Positions 1-18,084 of a stretch of DNA of 20,614 nucleotides are shown here, one piece after another (position 1 is the first letter of the stretch; each line of letters starts with the position of its first letter). A program made the position numbers and the translations under genes. Source of the stretch: a virus; the IMG/VR virus record IMGVR_UViG_3300025120_000722, positions 1-20,614 of that record. The stretch is one strand, 5' to 3'. The notes under the pieces were generated by a model. It was not told where the DNA came from and made no database searches. It saw only the letters and a program-made list of their open reading frames with translations.

Positions 1-135
1 AGGCACCTCACCCTCTGAAGCATCACGTAATCGTAGAATATTAACCAAAGCATCATATGTTCTAGCAAATACAGAATTATTATTTCTTTCTGCGTATGAT
101 AACTCTGGGTATACTCCCTTACTAAACAAACTCAT
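1..135 (-). CDS. N-terminal 45 codons of an unidentified phage protein (runs off the left edge)
   Basis: An open frame begins at ATG 135-133 and stays open to base 1. It starts MSLFSKGVYPELSYAE and contains the segment RTYDALVNILRLRDASEGE. Its start codon overlaps the TAA of the preceding 629-aa tail gene in a TAATG junction, the coupling pattern used throughout this window, so the start is credible. No domain is recognisable in 45 residues. Position after the tail-hub gene makes another tail or virion protein likely, but that is inference only. Confidence 0.75.
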   Translation of the reverse strand, partial: MSLFSKGVYPELSYAERNNNSVFARTYDALVNILRLRDASEGEVP

Positions 136-2024
136 TATCTTGTTCCGTCTCCTTGTCCTTCAGCTCTCCAAGTTCCTAATCTCCAAGATGTATCTGATGC
201 ATCTGAAAAGTATTTAACTTGAAATGATCTGCCTCTGGCACGTAGATTTAATTTAGTTGTTGAAGATGTTAATGTAAAAGGCCCTTTAGTTGTTTCAGTT
301 CCGTTAGGATATCTCTTTGATTTCATCTGAAATTTTATTTGAGAACCTGAAAAGAATTTAGTATCGGGTATAATTCTACTCATGAATATTAAGTTATCGC
401 CATTCTCATCACCACTAAAGAATCCAGTTTCAACTGAAGCTGCTAGTGCAGATGTATTGTCATTGACTCCATTCTCATGTTCAAATACATTACCCGAAGA
501 ATCGGTAGCTAATGGAAACTCTTCTATATCAGAATCCGACCAAGCCGTTCTGACTAAAGAACCAATAGCCCATGTGTTATCTACATAATTATAAATGACG
601 TAGTTAGTTATTTCTGTTGTATCTCCTGATGGATAAAACCACCACACTTCTTGAAACTTAGTATTGACTGCGGCAAAAACTTTTTCTCTTTGTATGTTAT
701 TTATATTATCAAATACTGTAGTTCTTACAGGACATTCTAAAGTTTTAACTGCACCATCATAAACATAGAAGTTATCTAAACCCATCCAGTATGCTAAACC
801 TTCAACCATGCCAGGAGCTTTAGGTGCTAAAGAACCTGATGCCTCACTGAGTTGTTGAAAAGAGAATGTAAATGGTGGGCCTATAAATTGCATACTATAC
901 AAATCTCTGTCAGTCCAAACATACATTTGACCACGACCTTTTGTTGCAGAAACTATCCTACTACCTGTTCCTAGTTTTTGTGAACCTGATGTGTTAGTTA
1001 TATCAGCGTTCCATGTAGATAAACTTTCTTGTGAAGAGAAACGAATTGTTGTCTCATCAAAATCTGTAGACCCTTGTGGGTTACAACCAAATACACAAAT
1101 GTGTCTATCTGGTGTGGATACTAATACTCTACCAGTTTTAGTTGGTATCTGTGAAGAGTCACCACTTAAAGTGTTAGTTACAAAGTGTGCTAAAGTTACA
1201 CCTCTATAAGTAGAAGCGCCTGCCAAGAATGCACTAATGTCAAAGTAATATATTGTATCTGTACCATCTGCTGTAGAAGCTATTACATCTTCTCCAAAAG
1301 AATCGAATGACCATACTCTAGGTTCTAATACAATACCAGCTGCTATTGTTCTAGCTGTGCCCCACGTAGATAATGCATAAGTTCCTGCACCCCAACCAAA
1401 TCCTGTTGTTGCATCTGATGGGCCGTTGTTAGTTAAGTAACGTACTCTTACTGTACCACCACCAGCTGTTGATCCTGATGAAGCTGTTCCTGATATACTA
1501 CCTGTGCCCCCTGAGACTGCTGTAATGTTGTAACTGTTTGCTGTTAAAAATTCTACAAAGTATTCACCAGCTGTAATTGTAATTCCGTCTGTAGTTCCTG
1601 TGCCAATAGATTCTATGACAACTCTAGATTGTGGAGTTGTACTTGTGACACCATGATTGGCATCTGTTACTGTTACAGTACTACTACCTGCTGATCCTGT
1701 TGTAAATGGATTAGTAAGGCTTTCTTGGTCTGTTCTGAAGGGTGTGATATCATACACGGCATCACCAAACTCCATGAAGACGTGAGTACTTGTACCATAA
1801 AAATTAAATTTTTTACCAGTAGAATCACGATGATTAAATATAGATCTGCATACCCCAGATAATGTACTGGAACTAAAAGCTTCTCGTTTTTTCCAACCAC
1901 CTATTTTTTCAGGAGCACCTTTTCTGAATCTTATCTTATCTGAATCAGTATATCTTAATCCTGCCTGATAATCTGTAATGTCTGTTACAACCCCTGCAGG
2001 AGCTGTTAATTTGACTAAGGGCAT
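135..2024 (-). CDS. Tail hub / packaged-DNA stabilisation-like protein (P22 gp10-like)
   Basis: This 629-aa protein has no signal peptide or membrane segment. Its N-terminus (MPLVKLTAPAGVV, then KIRFRKGAPEKIGGW near residues 30-44) matches the opening I know from marine podophage proteins compared with P22 gp10, the tail accessory factor that plugs the portal channel after packaging. Residues about 105-195 are Gly/Ser/Thr-rich and beta-prone; the rest carries repeated W/Y/F-rich strands, in keeping with the beta-propeller expected of such hubs. Translation starts at ATG 2024 behind AAGGA. It ends in a TAATG overlap with the next gene. It is separated from the rest of the tail genes by the modification cassette at 2083-6445, whereas gp4-like and adaptor genes lie at 9829-12269. 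The hub role is inferred from N-terminal resemblance, size and context. Confidence 0.6.
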   Translation of the reverse strand: MPLVKLTAPAGVVTDITDYQAGLRYTDSDKIRFRKGAPEKIGGWKKREAFSSSTLSGVCRSIFNHRDSTGKKFNFYGTSTHVFMEFGDAVYDITPFRTDQESLTNPFTTGSAGSSTVTVTDANHGVTSTTPQSRVVIESIGTGTTDGITITAGEYFVEFLTANSYNITAVSGGTGSISGTASSGSTAGGGTVRVRYLTNNGPSDATTGFGWGAGTYALSTWGTARTIAAGIVLEPRVWSFDSFGEDVIASTADGTDTIYYFDISAFLAGASTYRGVTLAHFVTNTLSGDSSQIPTKTGRVLVSTPDRHICVFGCNPQGSTDFDETTIRFSSQESLSTWNADITNTSGSQKLGTGSRIVSATKGRGQMYVWTDRDLYSMQFIGPPFTFSFQQLSEASGSLAPKAPGMVEGLAYWMGLDNFYVYDGAVKTLECPVRTTVFDNINNIQREKVFAAVNTKFQEVWWFYPSGDTTEITNYVIYNYVDNTWAIGSLVRTAWSDSDIEEFPLATDSSGNVFEHENGVNDNTSALAASVETGFFSGDENGDNLIFMSRIIPDTKFFSGSQIKFQMKSKRYPNGTETTKGPFTLTSSTTKLNLRARGRSFQVKYFSDASDTSWRLGTWRAEGQGDGTR

Positions 2025-2082: not shown

Positions 2083-2673
2083 TCAAGGCTTAGTTATAGC
2101 AAAATTGTATGCTAAAGTTATTCTAGAGTCTTTTAATTTGTGCTGTTCTACAGCGTGATGGATATGACTCCTAAATATTAACAGTTTTCCTTCTATAGAT
2201 TCATGAGTAATATGGGCATATGGATCTTCTTTGTTGTATTTTAATTCTACCATATCTTCTACAGGTGATTTAAACCACACCTTGCTACCACCTTTGGGTG
2301 ATTTTAAAAAATATATAACAGACAATGCTGAACCTGTGTGCAAATGAAACTCTTGAAAATCTCCTTTATTGTATACATTAAACCAGCCATTTTCTGGTTT
2401 GACATTAGAACCAATATAATTGCTACCCATATATTCTCCCACTTTGTCAAATATCCATTTATGTAAACCAGCAAAAACTTTATCCTCAAGTAGATTATAA
2501 TCTGTATGTATTGTGTTGTAAGTCTTATTGGCCAACCAACCTGTACCACCTGGTTTTGTTTTATTTTTTATTTCTAAACATCTTGTTACTAGTTTATCTT
2601 TTATATTTTTGTTGTTTTTATTAAACGAATATCCTATACCCGTAGCAAAAAATTTCTCTGTTATTACTTCCAT
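2083..2673 (-). CDS. 2-oxoglutarate/Fe(II)-dependent oxygenase (2OG-FeII_Oxy_5-like)
   Basis: This 196-aa protein should catalyse Fe(II)- and 2-oxoglutarate-dependent hydroxylation in the cytoplasm; the substrate is unknown. Residues 97-125 (GWFNVYNKG, FHLHTGSALSVIYFL) and 162-191 (GKLLIFRSHIHHAVEQH, SRITLAYNF) follow the pattern of the phage/cyanobacterial 2OG-FeII_Oxy_5 group: a core strand with H110 and H112, then a distal His (H170/H172/H173) and R184 suited to binding the co-substrate carboxylate. ATG 2673 has a strong TAGGAGG site and overlaps the end of the preceding oxygenase gene by 10 bases. It is the last gene of the cassette. Which His residues bind iron cannot be settled by eye, since no canonical HxD is obvious. 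The family call is fairly secure. Confidence 0.78.
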   Translation of the reverse strand: MEVITEKFFATGIGYSFNKNNKNIKDKLVTRCLEIKNKTKPGGTGWLANKTYNTIHTDYNLLEDKVFAGLHKWIFDKVGEYMGSNYIGSNVKPENGWFNVYNKGDFQEFHLHTGSALSVIYFLKSPKGGSKVWFKSPVEDMVELKYNKEDPYAHITHESIEGKLLIFRSHIHHAVEQHKLKDSRITLAYNFAITKP

Positions 2674-3125
2674 TTAAGTCCTCCTACTGCAACTCGTTTA
2701 CTTAGTGTAGATTGTAACCCTTCATGTTCTATATCAGCATCAAATAAAATCAGCTTACCTTTTTCAGGCTTTTCTGATATTGTCTTACCGTCTTTATAAA
2801 ACAGTGTGTCACCGTCTGAATCATTTAAATATAATATAAAAGATCTATCTTCATGCTCTATGTGATTATGTGGGTCTTGATAACCTCCACTAAAATATTC
2901 TACTAAATGCATATGATAAAAGTCGTAGTCTTTATGCAATTCTAATTCTTTAATTAACTTTGAATGCAATGTAGGATATAAAACATTACCAGTTTGGTAT
3001 CCATTTTGTGTTTTGTTTTTTGCATTCTTTATTTCTAATACTGGAGTTCTTGCTTTCCAATAGTCTAATAGATCTGACAACTCATTAATTAAATTGTCAT
3101 TCTTTATATATATTACTTTAAACAT
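2664..3125 (-). CDS. Small 2-oxoglutarate/Fe(II)-dependent oxygenase
   Basis: This 153-aa protein is short for the superfamily, but the C-terminal half has the full double-stranded beta-helix signature: H91-E-D93 as the HxD, then FILYLNDSDGDTLFY, then KGKLILFDADIEHEG with distal H134, then R144 for 2-oxoglutarate. Nearby H86 and H88 make the metal-site assignment slightly ambiguous. It is a predicted soluble hydroxylase of unknown substrate. Its ATG (3125) overlaps the previous gene's stop by 8 bases and has no strong ribosome site, so it is probably translated by coupling. It is clearly diverged from its three neighbours rather than a recent duplicate. Confidence 0.8.
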   Translation of the reverse strand: MFKVIYIKNDNLINELSDLLDYWKARTPVLEIKNAKNKTQNGYQTGNVLYPTLHSKLIKELELHKDYDFYHMHLVEYFSGGYQDPHNHIEHEDRSFILYLNDSDGDTLFYKDGKTISEKPEKGKLILFDADIEHEGLQSTLSKRVAVGGLKWK

Positions 3126-3726
3126 TTTTAAAATATTGTGGTAATCCTAAGAATGGTCTTGTATCATAGATATAATTTTTATCATCAGTAAAGTGAAAAA
3201 ATACTTGTGCACAATCATCTCCTTCAAAGGCATCTCTCCAATGTTCCAACTCACATCCTCTATACATTAACATATCTCCTGGATTTAAATTTACCTCTAC
3301 TCCTTTTTTATTTGATTCCCCAGATGGTTCTAAATAAATGGGCCACGCATCTCCTCCTATGTTCATCGTTGTAGAAATTTTACACGATGGTCTATCTTTA
3401 TGTCTTTTTAAAATATCTCCTTTTTTATATATTCTATAATATGTATAAGTAGAATGTAAATTTAATTTACTTTCTTTTTCTAGTATAGGTCTTATGTCTC
3501 TTTCTAATAATAAATCAAATACAGGATCACCATACATGCCATATGTATCAGGTACTTGCCTATCACCAAATACTCCATGGTCTACACTAAAGTAAGTTAT
3601 GTATTTAGTTTCAAATTTAAATTTAGAAATGTTTCTTTGCAACAACATATAATCATAAAGAAAGTTAGCAAACTTTTTATCTATTGCATTTGGTACAACT
3701 AAGTAATTGTCTTCTGCAAAACTCAT
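3118..3726 (-). CDS. 2-oxoglutarate/Fe(II) oxygenase-like protein with an atypical co-substrate site
   Basis: This 202-aa protein has the metal triad of the superfamily: H109-K-D111 (KRHKDRPSCKISTTMNIGG) and distal H162 (MYRGCELEHWRDAF). Where an Arg normally follows the distal His by about ten residues I see D171-C-A-Q174, so 2-oxoglutarate may be bound differently (R164 is a candidate). From memory the GCELEHWR pattern recurs in marine phage oxygenases. The frame could be extended to a GTG at 3750, but ATG 3726 forms a precise ATGA overlap with the upstream gene and is preferred. Substrate unknown. It is the third oxygenase of the cassette. Confidence 0.75.
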   Translation of the reverse strand: MSFAEDNYLVVPNAIDKKFANFLYDYMLLQRNISKFKFETKYITYFSVDHGVFGDRQVPDTYGMYGDPVFDLLLERDIRPILEKESKLNLHSTYTYYRIYKKGDILKRHKDRPSCKISTTMNIGGDAWPIYLEPSGESNKKGVEVNLNPGDMLMYRGCELEHWRDAFEGDDCAQVFFHFTDDKNYIYDTRPFLGLPQYFKNV

Positions 3727-4295
3727 ACAAAATTTGTTCCTCTCAACCACGTTACTGCAGAATATCTAACACCTTTAGTAACTGGCATTACTTTGTGCCA
3801 TAAGAATGAAGGAAATATTACAAAACTTCCTTTTGGTTTTAATTCAGAAACAGTTAAATCTTTTGATGGTTTAACAACATTTGCATTACTTAATAAGAAA
3901 TTACCACCCTCATATTCTGATGGATCACTTAACGCTATTACAACTGATAACTTTCTAATTGTGTCACCATCTGAATTAAAATCATAATGCCAATCATAAT
4001 GTTGTCCTGGTTTATATTCTGTGAATTGAACTGGCTCAGATTTTTCATACTGAAAATTCCAACCAGCATTTTTATTAGCTTCATGTACAAATGGAAATAT
4101 TAAACCATATAACCAATCTTCATCTATCCACGATACATTAGAATTTCTTAATTTTAAATCTTGTTTAGCTGGGTCTGTATTATCACCAGCCAATGCTACA
4201 TCTAGTTTTTTATCTTTGCCTACTTTTATTATATTTTCACAGACATTGTGTGGTATGGCTTGGTCAAAATACCAATAGTTATAATCTAATATCAT
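3723..4295 (-). CDS. PKHD-type / prolyl-4-hydroxylase-like 2OG-Fe(II) oxygenase
   Basis: This 190-aa protein is the most canonical oxygenase of the group. The segment 90-105 (QFTEYKPGQHYDWHYD) supplies H103 and D105, LSVVIALSDPSEYEGGNF (116-133) is the typical core strand, and FVIFPSFLWHKVMPV gives distal H167, followed by R177 for 2-oxoglutarate. This is the pattern of the P4Hc/PKHD (PiuC/YbiX-like) family. The predicted reaction is Fe(II)/2OG hydroxylation; substrate unknown. ATG 4295 has AAGGAG five bases upstream and overlaps the carbamoyltransferase C-domain gene in an ATGA junction, which ties the two activities into one translational unit. Confidence 0.88.
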   Translation of the reverse strand: MILDYNYWYFDQAIPHNVCENIIKVGKDKKLDVALAGDNTDPAKQDLKLRNSNVSWIDEDWLYGLIFPFVHEANKNAGWNFQYEKSEPVQFTEYKPGQHYDWHYDFNSDGDTIRKLSVVIALSDPSEYEGGNFLLSNANVVKPSKDLTVSELKPKGSFVIFPSFLWHKVMPVTKGVRYSAVTWLRGTNFV

Positions 4296-4831
4296 ATTAA
4301 CTCCTTACTCTCGGGTAGATATAAATAGTCTATCGCAGATTGTTCAACTACATTCTTTGCATCTTTTAAAGTTTGTACAATAGGATACCCTGCCATATTA
4401 AATGAAGTATTAAATAATATTGGAATCTGTGTTAGGTTGTAAAATTCTTTTATTAAATCATAAAAGTTTTTGTTTGTTTCTCTTCGCAAAGTTTGAACTC
4501 TACACGTACCATCTACATGCGTTATAGCTGGTATAAAAGATTGTTTAGATTTAATTACATCTGCAGCATACATCATAAATGGTGATTCAGTTTCTTTACC
4601 TAAATCAAACCAGTCCTTTGCATATTCATATAAAACGGTACCCGCAAAAGGTCTAAACCATTCTCTTTTCTTTACTGTGTTAACTTTATTTTTACCATCT
4701 GGATTAGATGGATTGTGTAGTATACTTCTATTGCCTAGTGCTCTTGGGCCTGATTCAGATGCCCCCTGAAACATAGCAATTATTTTATTTTCTGTTAGTA
4801 ATTGTGCAACTTCTTTATGTGTTACGACCAT
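4292..4831 (-). CDS. O-carbamoyltransferase, C-terminal domain (NodU/CmcH/TobZ family), separate polypeptide
   Basis: These 179 residues correspond to the C-terminal (Carbam_trans_C-like) half of NodU/CmcH-family enzymes, which transfer a carbamoyl group from carbamoyl phosphate via carbamoyl-AMP to a hydroxyl. Visible motifs are FQGASESGPRALGNRSIL (21-38), KKREWFRPFA (54-63), HVDGTCRVQT (105-114) and LFNTSFN (139-145). The family usually has FGPRALGNRS, so here Phe is replaced by Ser. The N-terminal half is encoded just upstream in another frame (4815-5903), overlapping by 17 bases. An AGGAG lies ten bases before ATG 4831, so the domain can be translated on its own. The stop overlaps the next oxygenase by ATGA. 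The two proteins presumably assemble into one enzyme. Confidence 0.88.
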   Translation of the reverse strand: MVVTHKEVAQLLTENKIIAMFQGASESGPRALGNRSILHNPSNPDGKNKVNTVKKREWFRPFAGTVLYEYAKDWFDLGKETESPFMMYAADVIKSKQSFIPAITHVDGTCRVQTLRRETNKNFYDLIKEFYNLTQIPILFNTSFNMAGYPIVQTLKDAKNVVEQSAIDYLYLPESKELI

Positions 4832-5903
4832 AGTATATATTCTCCTGTCTTCTAATTGTCATATCTTTTGCTTCACCATGATACAACATCTTAGCTGCTC
4901 CCATTGAAGTTCCTGCATCATTAGATAAAGGTTCTATATATAAAGAAACGTCATCGGGTAACGATTTCATTATATCATAATTGGTTACGCAATTCAAGAA
5001 GTAACCACCACTCAAACAAACCTTTTTTGTTTTGGTTTTTTGCACCCAATCTAATACATATTCTTTTACATGCTTTTGAGTTTCTGTTTGTAAGGCATAA
5101 GCAAAGTCTGCTCCAGCTTGAAAATTATCTTTAGCTAAATTCATGTATGGGTAATTTTTATTATTAATAAACATCCTAGTTAGATTGTCATCTATATAAA
5201 ATAACCTGTTATTTAATTTACCATCAACATATATTGGAGGAACACAATCATTAGGTTTACCGTAGCTTGCCATACCCATAAGTTTGCCAGCATCCATATG
5301 TGCAAAACCAAAAAACTCAGAGCTATGGCCAAATGCTTGAGCTGGACTCATGTGATTACTGACATGCATCTTGCTATCTATATCTAATTTACCTGTTACT
5401 TCTGTAGGATAGCTTATATGTTTTTCTAACAATTCAAAAGCTGCTGGGTAAGAGCCTTGAAATACTGATGTGTGTTCTCTGCCATATACTTTTTGACCAT
5501 CTAGTTTAAAGTAAACTTCTGAACCCATACCATCTATAACTATACATAAAGCATCTTCAAAACCTGAATTGTAAAAACTACAAGCAGCATGAAGTTGATG
5601 ATGATGACTACTTAAGTCTGTAGTTTTAAATGGTTTGCCTTTAAATGAGCGAGATAAATTATCTACAAAATGCGTAAATATATCTTTGCCTTCCCAATAA
5701 TCTATATCTTGTTCGGCGAAAGCTGCTATACCTAATCTGTCTATGTGATCTACATACTTAGTTATTTCTAACATAGCGTGTATTGGAAGACAGTCGTATT
5801 TTATTTTTGTTAATCTTTCGTTTTCTAAATGTAATAAGACTTCACCATCTTTAACTAAACAGACAGAAGCGTTATGATTACGATTTATACCTAAGCAGAT
5901 CAC
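4815..5903 (-). CDS. O-carbamoyltransferase, N-terminal Kae1-like domain (NodU/CmcH/TobZ family)
   Basis: These 362 residues form the N-terminal (Carbam_trans_N-like) domain of NodU/CmcH carbamoyltransferases, an ASKHA/Kae1-type fold. Motifs in order are GINRNHNAS (5-13), ENER (27-30), HHHQLHAA (100-107, metal-ligand region), VIDGMG (122-127), KLMGMASYG (207-215), LSGGYFLN (297-304) and SNDAGTSMGA (327-336). The frame then ends within about 26 residues, where family members normally run on into the C-terminal domain; that domain is present as a separate gene in the +1 frame. The start is GTG at 5903 in a GTGA overlap with the preceding gene, with no good ribosome site, so coupling is likely. 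The acceptor is unknown: sugar, nucleobase or hydroxylated residue. Confidence 0.88.
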   Translation of the reverse strand: MICLGINRNHNASVCLVKDGEVLLHLENERLTKIKYDCLPIHAMLEITKYVDHIDRLGIAAFAEQDIDYWEGKDIFTHFVDNLSRSFKGKPFKTTDLSSHHHQLHAACSFYNSGFEDALCIVIDGMGSEVYFKLDGQKVYGREHTSVFQGSYPAAFELLEKHISYPTEVTGKLDIDSKMHVSNHMSPAQAFGHSSEFFGFAHMDAGKLMGMASYGKPNDCVPPIYVDGKLNNRLFYIDDNLTRMFINNKNYPYMNLAKDNFQAGADFAYALQTETQKHVKEYVLDWVQKTKTKKVCLSGGYFLNCVTNYDIMKSLPDDVSLYIEPLSNDAGTSMGAAKMLYHGEAKDMTIRRQENIYYGRNT

Positions 5904-6445
5904 GGAATAGTTATACCAATAGATAATTTTTTATCTGTTGTTTTAATCACCTCGTGTCTTGTAAATCTAGGAATTAATAAAGTATCATTAGCTTGTAATG
6001 TAACTTCTTCACTGCTAACTAACCAATGTCCTGTTCCATATATTTGTTTAACGATCACATCAAAATCGTGTTCATGCATAGTGTAACTTATTTTCTGCCC
6101 CCCTGGCTTAGCAAAAACAAAGTTTGCATTTACTGTATCACCTACTAATCTTTTGCAGATTAAATCTAATTCCCTTAATTCTTTTGTTAAATCTAATACA
6201 CTATTTAACACAGTCATAAAACCGTTGTCATAATACTTCTTCCATTCTTCATAGACAAAGTAACCATCGTAACTGTAAAAAGGAAATACTAATATGCCAC
6301 TGCTATTTAATATCTCTACACCGTATTGACCCCATGAATATTTTAAAGGCCATCGTTTTCTTATTTGTAAAAGATCTAATACATCATCTTCCTTTAACGG
6401 AATATGCAAGTCTTTTAATTCTTGTTCTAGTTTATTTAAATACAC
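5900..6445 (-). CDS. Cupin / JmjC-like putative metal-dependent oxygenase
   Basis: This 181-aa protein has an alpha-helical N-terminus and a C-terminal cupin barrel. Residues 121-141 contain MHEHDFDVIVKQIYGTGHW, followed by NDTLLIPRFTRHEV (153-166) with the second-motif His at 164. The order H-x-H/D, DV, Q, G-x-G/K-x-W, D-x-L-x-IP, H resembles the ribosomal-oxygenase (YcfD/ROX-type) JmjC group. The usual HxD is H124-E-H126 here, so a plain cupin metal site is equally possible. It is the first gene of the modification cassette. Translation begins at GTG 6445, five bases after AGGAG; no ATG fits. It follows a terminator-like hairpin and overlaps the carbamoyltransferase by GTGA. Function inferred; substrate unknown. 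Confidence 0.62.
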   Translation of the reverse strand: MYLNKLEQELKDLHIPLKEDDVLDLLQIRKRWPLKYSWGQYGVEILNSSGILVFPFYSYDGYFVYEEWKKYYDNGFMTVLNSVLDLTKELRELDLICKRLVGDTVNANFVFAKPGGQKISYTMHEHDFDVIVKQIYGTGHWLVSSEEVTLQANDTLLIPRFTRHEVIKTTDKKLSIGITIP

Positions 6446-6456
6446 ACACTCTCCTG

Positions 6457-6483
6457 TAAAAGAGGGGGCAGTCTCCCACCCCC
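6457..6483 (-). terminator. Terminator-like hairpin between the polyglycine gene and the modification cassette
   Basis: On the minus strand five G pair with five C (6479-6483 with 6464-6468). The stem is extended by T-G, G-T and G-C pairs and closes on a GAGA tetraloop of the stable GNRA type. It is followed by TCTTTTA. The U-tract is short, so termination may be partial. The hairpin lies exactly in the 47-base gap between the 6493 stop and the 6445 start. Confidence 0.55.
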
Positions 6484-6492
6484 AGTGTTAGT

Positions 6493-7545
6493 TTATCCTG
6501 ATGATGATTTCCATCTTCCTGCTTCAATTCTGTCGAATACATCTTTTTGATTCCACATACCTGGAGCTATAAAGGTTATGCCTGGAACAGCAGCTTCATG
6601 TATTACTACTTTACCACTACCTCCAGTACCTCCATCTCTTGTTGGGGAGTTACCTCTTGGGTGACAAGAAGAACCTGCTCCTCCACCACCTCCGCCTGTA
6701 TTAGCTGAACCGTTTGATCCGTTTGCATCTGTTCCACCAGCACCAGCTCCACCTGGGCCAGCAGCACCGCCTGCTGTGTTACCTTTTACAGTACCACCTC
6801 CGCCACCGCCTGAAACAGTAGCTGAATAATTTCCTACGTTAAATGGTGAACCGTTTCCACCGTTACCACCTCTACCTGGTTGAGATCCGTCACCTCCAGC
6901 GAAGCCATCACTACCAGCTCCACCTCCACCACCAGAGCCTGAACCGCCAGCTGGGCAAGTGTTTCCACCTGTTCTGGCACCGCCTGTATTACCTTGACCT
7001 GGTGCGTTTGGTGCATTAATTACTCCAGTAGAAGCTCCGCCTCCACTAGATCCACCTGCTGTATTAGGGGCGTTAGAACCGCCACCACCGCCTCCGCCAC
7101 CGAAAGCTGTGTATGTTGTACCACTTGATACAACTACAGAGTTACCTCCAGCTGTTCCAGCATTGTTAGCTCCACCAGCGCCAGGAGCGCCACCGCCACC
7201 TGAACCTATAGTTACAGGAACAGCGTCTTGAGGAACTGCTACCGCACTATTACCTGGACTGTTAGTATTTGCACTATTAAAGAGAACGCCTCCGCCTCCT
7301 CCACCGCCACCTTGACGGTTGTTGTCAGTTCCAGCACCGCCACCGCCACCTCCAGCAACTAATAAAATATTAGCGTTGCTAGTAGCTTGACCTGCTTGAA
7401 ATGTGCCTGTTGAATTAATTTGTGTAGTAGATGCTCCTTGGTCTTCTGCAAATCTAGTTAATTGATTTGGGCCTACTATACCACCGTTGTCTTTTGCAAA
7501 AGATAAAGAGCCTAAGTCTTTAGTTATTGTATTTATGCCTGCCAT
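6493..7545 (-). CDS. Polyglycine-rich tail fibre / receptor-binding adhesin
   Basis: This 350-aa protein comprises a 60-residue N-terminal segment, a very Gly-rich region from about 61 to 315 and a 35-residue C-terminal tail. The Gly-rich part opens with ILLVAGGGGGGAG and repeats runs of five to eight Gly separated by N/S/A/P/T-rich loops. This is the Gly-rich phage fibre domain typified by LVVAGGGGGG..., and it recalls the polyglycine-II adhesins of gp38 type. The C-terminal PGMWNQKDVFDRIEAGRW resembles a short end motif common in marine phage virion proteins. ATG 7545 has AAGGAG at good spacing. It probably sits at the fibre tip and contacts the host. It directly precedes the hydroxylase/carbamoyltransferase cassette, which might act on it. 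Confidence 0.72.
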   Translation of the reverse strand: MAGINTITKDLGSLSFAKDNGGIVGPNQLTRFAEDQGASTTQINSTGTFQAGQATSNANILLVAGGGGGGAGTDNNRQGGGGGGGGVLFNSANTNSPGNSAVAVPQDAVPVTIGSGGGGAPGAGGANNAGTAGGNSVVVSSGTTYTAFGGGGGGGGSNAPNTAGGSSGGGASTGVINAPNAPGQGNTGGARTGGNTCPAGGSGSGGGGGAGSDGFAGGDGSQPGRGGNGGNGSPFNVGNYSATVSGGGGGGTVKGNTAGGAAGPGGAGAGGTDANGSNGSANTGGGGGGAGSSCHPRGNSPTRDGGTGGSGKVVIHEAAVPGITFIAPGMWNQKDVFDRIEAGRWKSSSG

Positions 7546-17092: not shown

Positions 17093-17422
17093 CTATTTAT
17101 GTGTTATTTTAGTAGGATCTGGTACTACAGCTAGTACTTCATCATCATTAATCATTGAGTATTCTACTCCTTCGTATTTGAATTTTAATCCAACATACTT
17201 TGCAGTAAGAACCCAGTCATTAATTTTACACCATGATTCGCTTTTATCATGATAACAATCCGATCCCATTCCTATAACTTGCGATACAACACAAGAAAAT
17301 TTAGCTGCTTCTCTTGAATCGTCAGTTAGTATTATGCCCCCTTTAGTCTTCTCGTCAACTTCTCTGGCTTTTAGTAATACTCTAAATCCCGCAGGTTTAG
17401 GTAGTAATTTATTGTCAGACAT
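17093..17422 (-). CDS. groES: GroES-type co-chaperonin
   Basis: This 109-aa protein is predicted to cap the host GroEL ring and help fold phage proteins, probably the capsid subunit. The N-terminal FRVLLKAREVDEKTK strand, the mobile-loop GGIIL (28-32) that contacts GroEL, VSQVIGMGSD, KINDWVLTAKYVGLKFKYEG and the C-terminal DDEVLAVV all match the GroES fold. A stretch with two Cys (DCYHDKSESWC) replaces the usual surface loop, a variation seen in phage co-chaperonins such as T4 gp31. The frame can be read from 17458, but ATG 17422 sits just after AGGAGG, so it is chosen. It overlaps the 68-aa gene by 8 bases. Confidence 0.88.
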   Translation of the reverse strand: MSDNKLLPKPAGFRVLLKAREVDEKTKGGIILTDDSREAAKFSCVVSQVIGMGSDCYHDKSESWCKINDWVLTAKYVGLKFKYEGVEYSMINDDEVLAVVPDPTKITHK

Positions 17423-17621
17423 TATTCTCCTCCTGTTTATAAAGTTTTTTATACTCATCTCTTACTCTAGATTTCATATCTTGCAAGGTGTGTCCAATAC
17501 CTAGCATGTATTTGTATGAAGCAAAATCATCTGCACCAACACCAGATAACTGATCTTTGTTGGCGTCTATTGCTTCATCCAAAGTCTTTAATAAATTGTC
17601 TTTTAATGTAGTAGCGTTCAT
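17415..17621 (-). CDS. Conserved small helical protein between the two chaperone genes
   Basis: These 68 residues are mostly helical: MNATTLKDNLLKTLDEAID, QLSGVGADDFASYKYMLG and MKSRVRDEYKKLYKQ. I know similar short proteins (with an SGVGA..YASYKY segment) from marine phages, but no function. The frame extends upstream, but ATG 17621 is preceded at four bases by AGGAG and is used. Position between Hsp20 and GroES genes and an 8-base overlap with GroES suggest co-translation with the chaperones; a direct role in folding is not shown. Confidence 0.65.
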   Translation of the reverse strand: MNATTLKDNLLKTLDEAIDANKDQLSGVGADDFASYKYMLGIGHTLQDMKSRVRDEYKKLYKQEENNV

Positions 17622-17637
17622 ATCTCTCCTGTTGAAG

Positions 17638-17655
17638 GGGGCAGTTTTATGCCCC
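17638..17655 (-). terminator. G/C hairpin after the Hsp20 gene
   Basis: GGGGCA at 17638-17643 pairs with TGCCCC at 17650-17655 around a six-base loop, seven bases after the Hsp20 stop. On the minus strand it is followed by CTTCAAC, not a T-tract. Its right arm matches the TGCCCCCT of the hairpins at 13924 and 6464. Attenuation or RNA processing is more likely than full termination. Confidence 0.45.
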
Positions 17656-17661
17656 ATCCAT

Positions 17662-18084
17662 TTATTTAATAGTTACTGTTTTAGGTTTTTTCTCCTTTGG
17701 TACAATCTTTTCAACGTATATTGAAAGTAAACCATTTTTTAGATTTGCATCTGTCACTATCATATCATCTCCTAATGCAAATGATCTGATAAATGATCTT
17801 TGTGAAATACCCTGATGCACTACATCTTTATCTTCAGTTTTATCTTTTTTAATAGATTGAACTGTCATAGTGTTGTCTGCATACTCCACATGAATATCTT
17901 CTTTACCAAAACCTGCTACAGCCATTTCAACTGCATAGTGTAAAGCATCTAATTTTTTAATATTATATGGTGGGTAGTTTGGAATAGATGTGTCAATTTC
18001 TAACATTCTATTCATAATTGAATCGAACCCAATCGTAAATGGTCTGTAAGGTTCCCAATTAAAAGAGTGTTTTAGTATATTCAT
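17662..18084 (-). CDS. Small heat-shock protein, Hsp20 / alpha-crystallin family
   Basis: This 140-aa protein is an ATP-independent holdase that prevents aggregation. The alpha-crystallin domain spans about 37-128: YPPYNIKKLDALHYAVEMAV and GFGKEDIHVEY (the IbpA-like opening), SQRSFIRSFALGDDM, and the hallmark A-x(3)-N-G-L-L in ANLKNGLLSIYV (113-124). The short tail has TVTI (136-139), a degenerate form of the I-x-I oligomer motif. Hsp20 genes are common in cyanophages and some other marine phages. ATG 18084 has CGGAGG four bases upstream, and a near-consensus promoter lies 50 bases upstream. It heads the chaperone trio with the 68-aa protein and GroES. Confidence 0.9.
   Translation of the reverse strand: MNILKHSFNWEPYRPFTIGFDSIMNRMLEIDTSIPNYPPYNIKKLDALHYAVEMAVAGFGKEDIHVEYADNTMTVQSIKKDKTEDKDVVHQGISQRSFIRSFALGDDMIVTDANLKNGLLSIYVEKIVPKEKKPKTVTIK

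Follow-up and report, generated by a model that had tools for sequence, protein, structure and literature searches.

What does a marine phage do with a set of oxygenases and a carbamoyltransferase encoded directly behind its tail fibre? The question is raised by IMG/VR virus record IMGVR_UViG_3300025120_000722, a stretch of 20,614 nucleotides (20.6 kb, here called the window) with genes mostly on the minus strand. Seven open reading frames (ORFs), g1 to g7, run on that strand from position 6445 to 2083. By sequence or structure they encode four oxygenase-type enzymes, a cupin of JmjC fold and a two-subunit O-carbamoyltransferase (CT), in one overlapping run after a fibre gene. In our preferred reading, which we hold tentatively and at less than even confidence, a marine podovirus expresses these genes late, as a modification cassette tied to its tail-fibre module, and their products act on a component of the virion.

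A conserved cassette under selection

The cassette is flanked by a glycine-rich fibre gene and, at its other end, a P22-gp10-like head-closure gene (Table 1), with gaps of less than 60 nt on each side and overlaps inside: 4 bp for g1/g2 and g3/g4, 17 nt for g2/g3, and 4 bp again for g4/g5 if g5 starts at the ATG at 3726. This is probably the true start of g5, since a stop precedes that ATG in the relative L008.

Eight other near-identical contigs carry the cassette genes in the same order, with protein identities of 73-96%. Five of them cover all seven genes, in three the fetched stretch ends within the cassette, and in all eight the genes are intact as far as each contig reaches. Between the window and these relatives, the ratio of nonsynonymous to synonymous substitutions (dN/dS) is 0.05-0.24 for each of the seven genes. 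For comparison, the capsid gene has 0.04-0.05 and two other structural genes have 0.05-0.13; the fibre gene, at about 0.32, has the highest value among the genes tested. All seven cassette genes are under purifying selection. Given the order kept in eight other contigs and the dN/dS of every gene, the cassette is not a product of chance: it is real, conserved, under selection and built of known families. A first-pass annotation of this DNA had placed seven overlapping genes here, next to fibre genes, and both statements are borne out by the ORFs, their overlaps and the adjoining fibre gene.

Table 1. Features of the cassette and its borders (positions in the window).
Feature	Position	Strand	Basis
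Glycine-rich fibre gene, 350 aa; its product is the putative substrate or carries it	6493..7545	-	PF21722 Gly_rich_2 E 8.9e-16; phrog_2295
Terminator-like hairpin then T-rich tail, between fibre gene and cassette	6464..6483	-	consensus scan only; 8 pairs, 6 GC
g1: cupin, JmjC ribosomal-oxygenase-like fold	5900..6445	-	HxH...H metal motif; weak Cupin_2/JmjC_2; phrog_29157 E 2e-49
g2: O-carbamoyltransferase N-terminal (Kae1-like) half, Carbam_trans_N	4815..5903	-	PF02543 5e-23; phrog_1601
g3: O-carbamoyltransferase C-terminal half, Carbam_trans_C	4292..4831	-	PF16861 1e-61
g4: 2OG-Fe(II) oxygenase, phrog_61 / PKHD-like	3723..4295	-	2OG-FeII_Oxy_3 PF13640 1.7e-18
g5: 2OG-Fe(II)-oxygenase-fold protein, phrog_2954 'ferrochelatase'	3118..3726 (listed ORF 3118-3750)	-	AlphaFold2 fold; HxD...H motif
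g6: 2OG-Fe(II) oxygenase, phrog_274	2664..3125	-	PF13640 2.8e-6, just over its cut-off; phrog_274 1.8e-13
g7: 2OG-Fe(II) oxygenase, TIGR02466/phrog_81	2083..2673	-	2OG-FeII_Oxy_5 PF13759 1.6e-13
P22-gp10-like head-closure/stabilisation protein, cassette border	135..2024	-	phrog_3287 3e-74; 'stabilization protein' homologues

Enzymes of the cassette

The motifs HHxxHA, DG and an NDxG-type motif of g2 align to GdmN, and its matches in the PDB are GdmN and TobZ. For g3, which carries GPRALGNRS and NTSFN, the matches are 7xb6, GdmN and TobZ; the motifs of this C-terminal half are invariant or nearly so in 11 homologues. Together, g2 and g3 hold both domains of NodU, TobZ and GdmN (PF02543 and PF16861, above cut-off) and the key catalytic and metal motifs. 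However, those enzymes are single polypeptides while the CT of the window is made as two. The split point is identical in nine of nine contigs (the window and its eight relatives), so a sequencing error is rejected as its cause. Other CT homologues are mostly one ORF, with separate splits in L013 and L128. In the cyanophage S-RIM44 (L021 9001-10619) the gene is both split and permuted: the C part comes first, right behind ThyX, and the N part follows. In a tree of CTs, the window protein groups weakly with that of contig L011, which also carries g4, a g7-type gene and g5; the deep support of this tree is weak, and it does not settle how many times a CT was gained at the locus.

Three of the oxygenases, dependent on 2-oxoglutarate (2OG), are recognised by family profiles. 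In g4, H103xD105 and H167 are invariant and R177 is at least 90% conserved in 11 sequences, which gives the HxD...H...R pattern. The corresponding HxD/E...H...R/K pattern of g6 is seen as HxE, H134 and R/K144 in four aligned members of the lineage. In g7 the invariant residues are H110, H112, H173 and R184, that is HxH...H...R where the canonical motif is HxD...H...R; we take HxH...H...R to be the motif carried by the PF13759 family. The database name of phrog_274, the family of g6, is 'DNA endonuclease V', yet the proteins under that name score here as 2OG-Fe(II)-oxygenase-like; both this name and 'ferrochelatase' are met with on L018-L024 and in the 'phages' collection.

For g5 there is no Pfam or NCBIfam match, only the PHROG label 'ferrochelatase'. 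Its AlphaFold2 model is confident (predicted local distance difference test, pLDDT, 91), and in a fold search every top match in the PDB is a 2OG-Fe(II) dioxygenase or a close relative of one; free-proline and prolyl hydroxylases are among them, but also the natural-product oxygenases MysH and SnoN. H109xD111 and H162 are invariant in an alignment of 45 sequences. Because this invariant HxD...H coincides with a modelled double-stranded beta-helix that matches 2OG-Fe(II) dioxygenases, g5 is, by its predicted structure, a protein of the 2OG-oxygenase fold. Where a basic residue would be expected about 10 positions after the distal His, it has an invariant Q at +12; an invariant R at +2 and R98 might stand in as the 2OG-binding residue. 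A role as ferrochelatase is rejected by fold and motif. In HTVC023P-type pelagiphages the same family has been taken as a heme enzyme (PMC9599517), a reading that the model does not support.

Two bacterial homologues of g5, L379 and L382, lie near Asn-synthase-type genes; L382, from Methylomonas, is also near a sulfotransferase and another 2OG gene. To us these neighbourhoods resemble clusters that tailor ribosomally synthesised and post-translationally modified peptides, and by analogy they would fit peptide-directed chemistry.

The cupin g1 is modelled with a pLDDT of 89, and its best PDB matches are MINA53, NO66 and YcfD, with TMq of about 0.6-0.74, as expected for a JmjC/cupin fold. H124, H126 and H164 are invariant in 16 sequences. 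While the predicted fold is thus shared with known protein hydroxylases, g1 is about half their size or less, has HxH...H in the place of HxD...H, and shows no conserved basic residue in the 16 sequences where JmjC enzymes bind 2OG. As a canonical JmjC 2OG hydroxylase it is therefore rejected, the fold agreeing and the active site not; the model places g1 as JmjC-like in fold only. Of the enzyme classes named in the first-pass annotation, those of g2, g3, g4, g6 and g7 are supported by Pfam, PHROGs and NCBIfam and that of g5 by its fold, while for the cupin/JmjC-like g1 the fold is retained and the expected active site is not.

An oxygenase core with variable additions

We surveyed loci with g5 and with CT as seeds. 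The g5 survey took, in IMG/VR, the 80 nearest loci outside the window lineage. The other took 80 CT loci (L105-L184), found by patterns with GPRALG[NH]RS or an alternative peptide, so that enzymes of the 5-hydroxymethylcytosine (5hmC) type are under-sampled by design.

Among the g5 loci, g4 is present in 69/80, a g7-type gene in 60/80 and at least three 2OG genes in 63/80, while a CT is found in none of the 80. In HTVC023P-type podoviruses, an oxygenase core of g4, g5 and others commonly stands as a block behind the tail-fibre genes. Seen from the CT the picture differs: a 2OG gene is within reach in 40/80 CT loci and directly beside the CT in 24/80, against 11.4±2.6 when the CT is placed randomly among the genes of each locus. 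When CTs more than 85% identical are collapsed, 21 of 72 are beside a 2OG gene, against 10.7±2.5. In short, the oxygenases do not need the CT, but the CT keeps company with oxygenases. The combination of CT, g4 and g5 recurs in the window lineage, in L011, L012 and L015-L017, and in the cyanophages P-RSM4, S-CAM8 and S-SSM5.

Further, other genes turn up in the same interval. A tryptophan halogenase is found on the fibre side in 5/80 g5 loci (e.g. L038 2403-3923) and 9/80 CT loci (e.g. L180, L152), and the interval between fibre and gp10-like gene in g5 loci also holds sulfotransferase and methyltransferase genes. The best supported description is that of oxygenases as the core, with CT, halogenase, sulfotransferase or methyltransferase as variable additions. 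In the window, g2/g3 and g1 are lineage-specific additions to the conserved core, and 72 more distant homologues of g1 do not sit with a CT. The core is widespread and partly described; the split CT and the JmjC-fold cupin are the variant part. The co-occurrence in relatives that the first-pass annotation had proposed as a check is thus found for the oxygenases, and for g2/g3 and g1 its absence goes partly against the cassette as a fixed set.

Position next to fibre genes

In HTVC023P-type podovirus contigs, the oxygenase core lies between the fibre genes and the gp10-like gene. In 58/65 g5 loci, the three genes just upstream of the first 2OG gene include a glycine-rich one, against 39.5±2.8 by permutation, a figure that comes from a g5-seeded sample of short contigs. 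Near the CT, glycine-rich or fibre-chaperone (Phage_tail_APC) genes are seen in 36/80 CT loci. The same oxygenase families also follow fibre or baseplate genes in unrelated myoviruses of Pelagibacter and of cyanobacteria: HTVC008M, P-RSM4, S-CAM8 and S-SSM5. In the window itself the product of the fibre gene is 31% Gly.

One relative, L267, shows what may be an exchange. Its major capsid protein is 73% and its gp10-like protein 60% identical to those of the window, on the same head-tail backbone. However, the two small upstream genes t2 and t3, the glycine-rich fibre and all seven cassette genes are absent, and in their place are a longer, different fibre and a 210-aa gene, as if fibre and cassette had been exchanged as a block.

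Several observations weigh against a cassette devoted to its neighbouring fibre. The swap in L267 is one case only, and the short, g5-seeded contigs limit what 58/65 can say. Loci seeded with the gp10-like gene show no significant link between cassette and glycine-rich fibre (odds ratio 3.2, p 0.15); of those contigs with enough upstream DNA, only 14/35 have 2OG genes. Cassettes are also found behind other fibre types, and glycine-rich fibres also without cassettes. The place among late genes may reflect timing alone. The sites of two proteins are non-canonical: the metal site of g1 (HxH...H instead of HxD/E...H) and the 2OG-binding site of g5. What holds is the position between the end of the fibre genes and the gp10-like gene; a tie to a single fibre family does not.

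What does the cassette act on?

That the cassette modifies a virion component whose gene lies beside it is the best supported mechanism, because of the position by fibre genes, the adjacency of CT and 2OG genes above chance, the swap in L267, the folds of g1 and g5, and the purifying selection. The fold of g1 is nearest to the protein hydroxylases NO66, MINA53 and YcfD, and that of g5 is close, among others, to proline and prolyl hydroxylases, which we count in favour of a protein substrate. The oxygenases would hydroxylate side chains of the adjacent fibre or adhesin protein, or a glycan on that protein. The halves g2 and g3 would assemble and, by analogy with TobZ, use carbamoyl phosphate and ATP; the enzyme would then transfer a carbamoyl group to a hydroxyl of the same part of the virion. 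Such a change may alter the virion surface in its receptor fit, its hydration, or its resistance to proteases or ageing.

The least supported step is that the acceptor of the CT is a hydroxyl made by an oxygenase of the cassette, and not a Ser/Thr or sugar hydroxyl; we consider it unlikely. The order in which one hydroxyl is first made and then carbamoylated is chemically sensible and is proposed only as such. Somewhat less likely still is the complete two-step pathway, in which the oxygenases hydroxylate fibre residues and the two-subunit CT caps them, leaving O-carbamoylated side chains on the virion. A single pathway had been suggested in the first-pass annotation. The frequent placement of CT beside 2OG genes (24/80) speaks for it; however, since the oxygenase core occurs without a CT in 80/80 g5 loci, hydroxylation and carbamoylation as one pathway are not required.

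It is possible, if unlikely, that the acceptor is a sugar: the CT would decorate a virion glycan or a host surface polysaccharide in the manner of NodU, with the oxygenases acting elsewhere. O-carbamoyl heptose occurs in bacterial lipopolysaccharide. In other marine phages the CT is most tightly linked to phrog_8954, which lies within two genes upstream in 50/80 CT loci and whose conserved C-terminal pattern (GGAGRV...SIPA / DSVGQH patterns) is GT9 glycosyltransferase-like by eye only; some CT loci also have sulfotransferase genes, or genes for an RfaE-like kinase and a cytidylyltransferase. But searches of Pfam and the PDB gave phrog_8954 no meaningful match that would mark it as a glycosyltransferase, all near relatives of the window lack it, and on the 37.7 kb relative nothing was noticed that looks like a glycosyltransferase. 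We give similarly low weight to a metabolic role, in which the oxygenases turn over 2-oxoglutarate or oxidise a host metabolite, the CT modifies a soluble product and the virion is untouched. Modulation of 2OG levels has been proposed for cyanophage 2OG enzymes (Sullivan et al. 2010, PMC3037559), 2OG genes are also found among replication genes in HTVC008M, and the matches of g5 to MysH and SnoN would suit such chemistry. Bulk turnover of 2OG needs one enzyme, however, while several oxygenase families stand side by side near fibre genes in unrelated phages.

More doubtful is the view that the neighbours share no pathway and that the interval from fibre to gp10-like gene is a hot spot for late cargo, with CT, cupin and oxygenases each having their own substrate. 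The 80 g5 loci without CT and the other cargo of this interval (halogenase, sulfotransferase, methyltransferase) agree with it, but neither the excess of CTs beside 2OG genes, before or after collapsing, nor the recurrence of CT, g4 and g5 in several lineages and three cyanophages would be expected. DNA is disfavoured as the substrate of the cassette, and hypermodification in which a hydroxymethylated base is carbamoylated, giving for example 5-carbamoyloxymethylcytosine, appears very improbable. A phage 5hmC carbamoyltransferase is proven (MetaGPA, PMC8670742), the permuted split CT of S-RIM44 stands beside ThyX, and hypermodification genes based on thymidylate synthase can occur in phages of the HTVC023P type (PMC9599517). 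Against this, thymidylate synthase (PF00303) is found in 0/13 CT contigs, all of them fragments, which leaves a low probability of a missing gene, and ThyX (PF02511) in 0/8 near relatives, fragments too, although DNA polymerase A is present on the 37.7 kb one. The proven enzyme is phage-encoded and of the same superfamily, but extremely distant from the window CT in the tree, and no thymidylate-synthase partner was found for the latter in these contigs. At TobZ positions 421/423, placed by us, as was 408, on the shared motif, the two also differ in specificity-associated residues: C,T (ALCNT) in the 5hmC enzyme and the usual G,R (ALGNR) in the window. Position 408, M in the window and I in the proven enzyme, does not separate them clearly. 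On this point the first-pass annotation, which had not favoured DNA, is supported.

Precedents in cultured phages

The first-pass annotation knew of no described system with this gene set, which is too strong. In the cultured cyanophages P-RSM4, S-CAM8 and S-SSM5, the genes right behind the fibre genes include a CT, members of the g4 and g5 families and other oxygenases. These T4-like cassettes share with the window the CT, the g4-family 2OG gene (T4-GC 412), the g5-family 'ferrochelatase' (T4-GC 615) and more 2OG genes, and g4 and g5 overlap in all of them. In contrast to the window, their CT is one gene on the opposite strand, there is no g1 cupin, and the gene order and the extra small genes are others. 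The gene set thus has a deposited precedent in cultured cyanophages, without an assigned function. For cyanophages, both CT and 2OG genes had been listed in 2010, as separate items (Sullivan et al. 2010, PMC3037559).

In S-TIM4 and S-MS29, CT and g5 homologues are found at the same spacing. Oxygenases without a CT follow the baseplate genes in the myovirus HTVC008M; in HTVC023P and HTVC033P, again without a CT, their neighbours are tail genes. For HTVC023P-type pelagiphages, the co-location of 2OG and 'ferrochelatase' genes has been described with no function assigned (Wittmers et al. 2022, PMC9599517). They carry the same g4 and g5 families, adjacent to each other, and the gp10-like gene of HTVC023P is homologous to that of the window; unlike in the window, no carbamoyltransferase appears in the main text of that paper.

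Genes for 2OG oxygenases rank with the most abundant auxiliary genes in ocean phages, and what they do has been a question ever since cyanophages were first sequenced. Here, the misleading 'ferrochelatase' label of g5 is removed and the adjacency of CT and oxygenases is shown to recur above chance. Cultured cyanophages with nearly the same cassette by their fibre genes make the question of the substrate testable; in this lies the value of the cassette, and we claim no new chemistry. If modification of the virion is correct, it would add a new layer of variation to how phage fibres are presented to hosts.

Other features of the region

A promoter scan of the region gave fewer sites than in shuffled sequences and is uninformative. 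In the hairpin scan the total for the region was not above that of shuffles, so the hairpin between fibre gene and cassette is a consensus match only. In the early region of the 37.7 kb relative (L266, 5105-9526), a run of genes resembles, by eye only, amidoligase, class II glutamine amidotransferase and gamma-glutamylcyclotransferase-like genes. Upstream of the capsid genes, at 17093-18084, the window encodes GroES-like and Hsp20/IbpA-like chaperones of its own.

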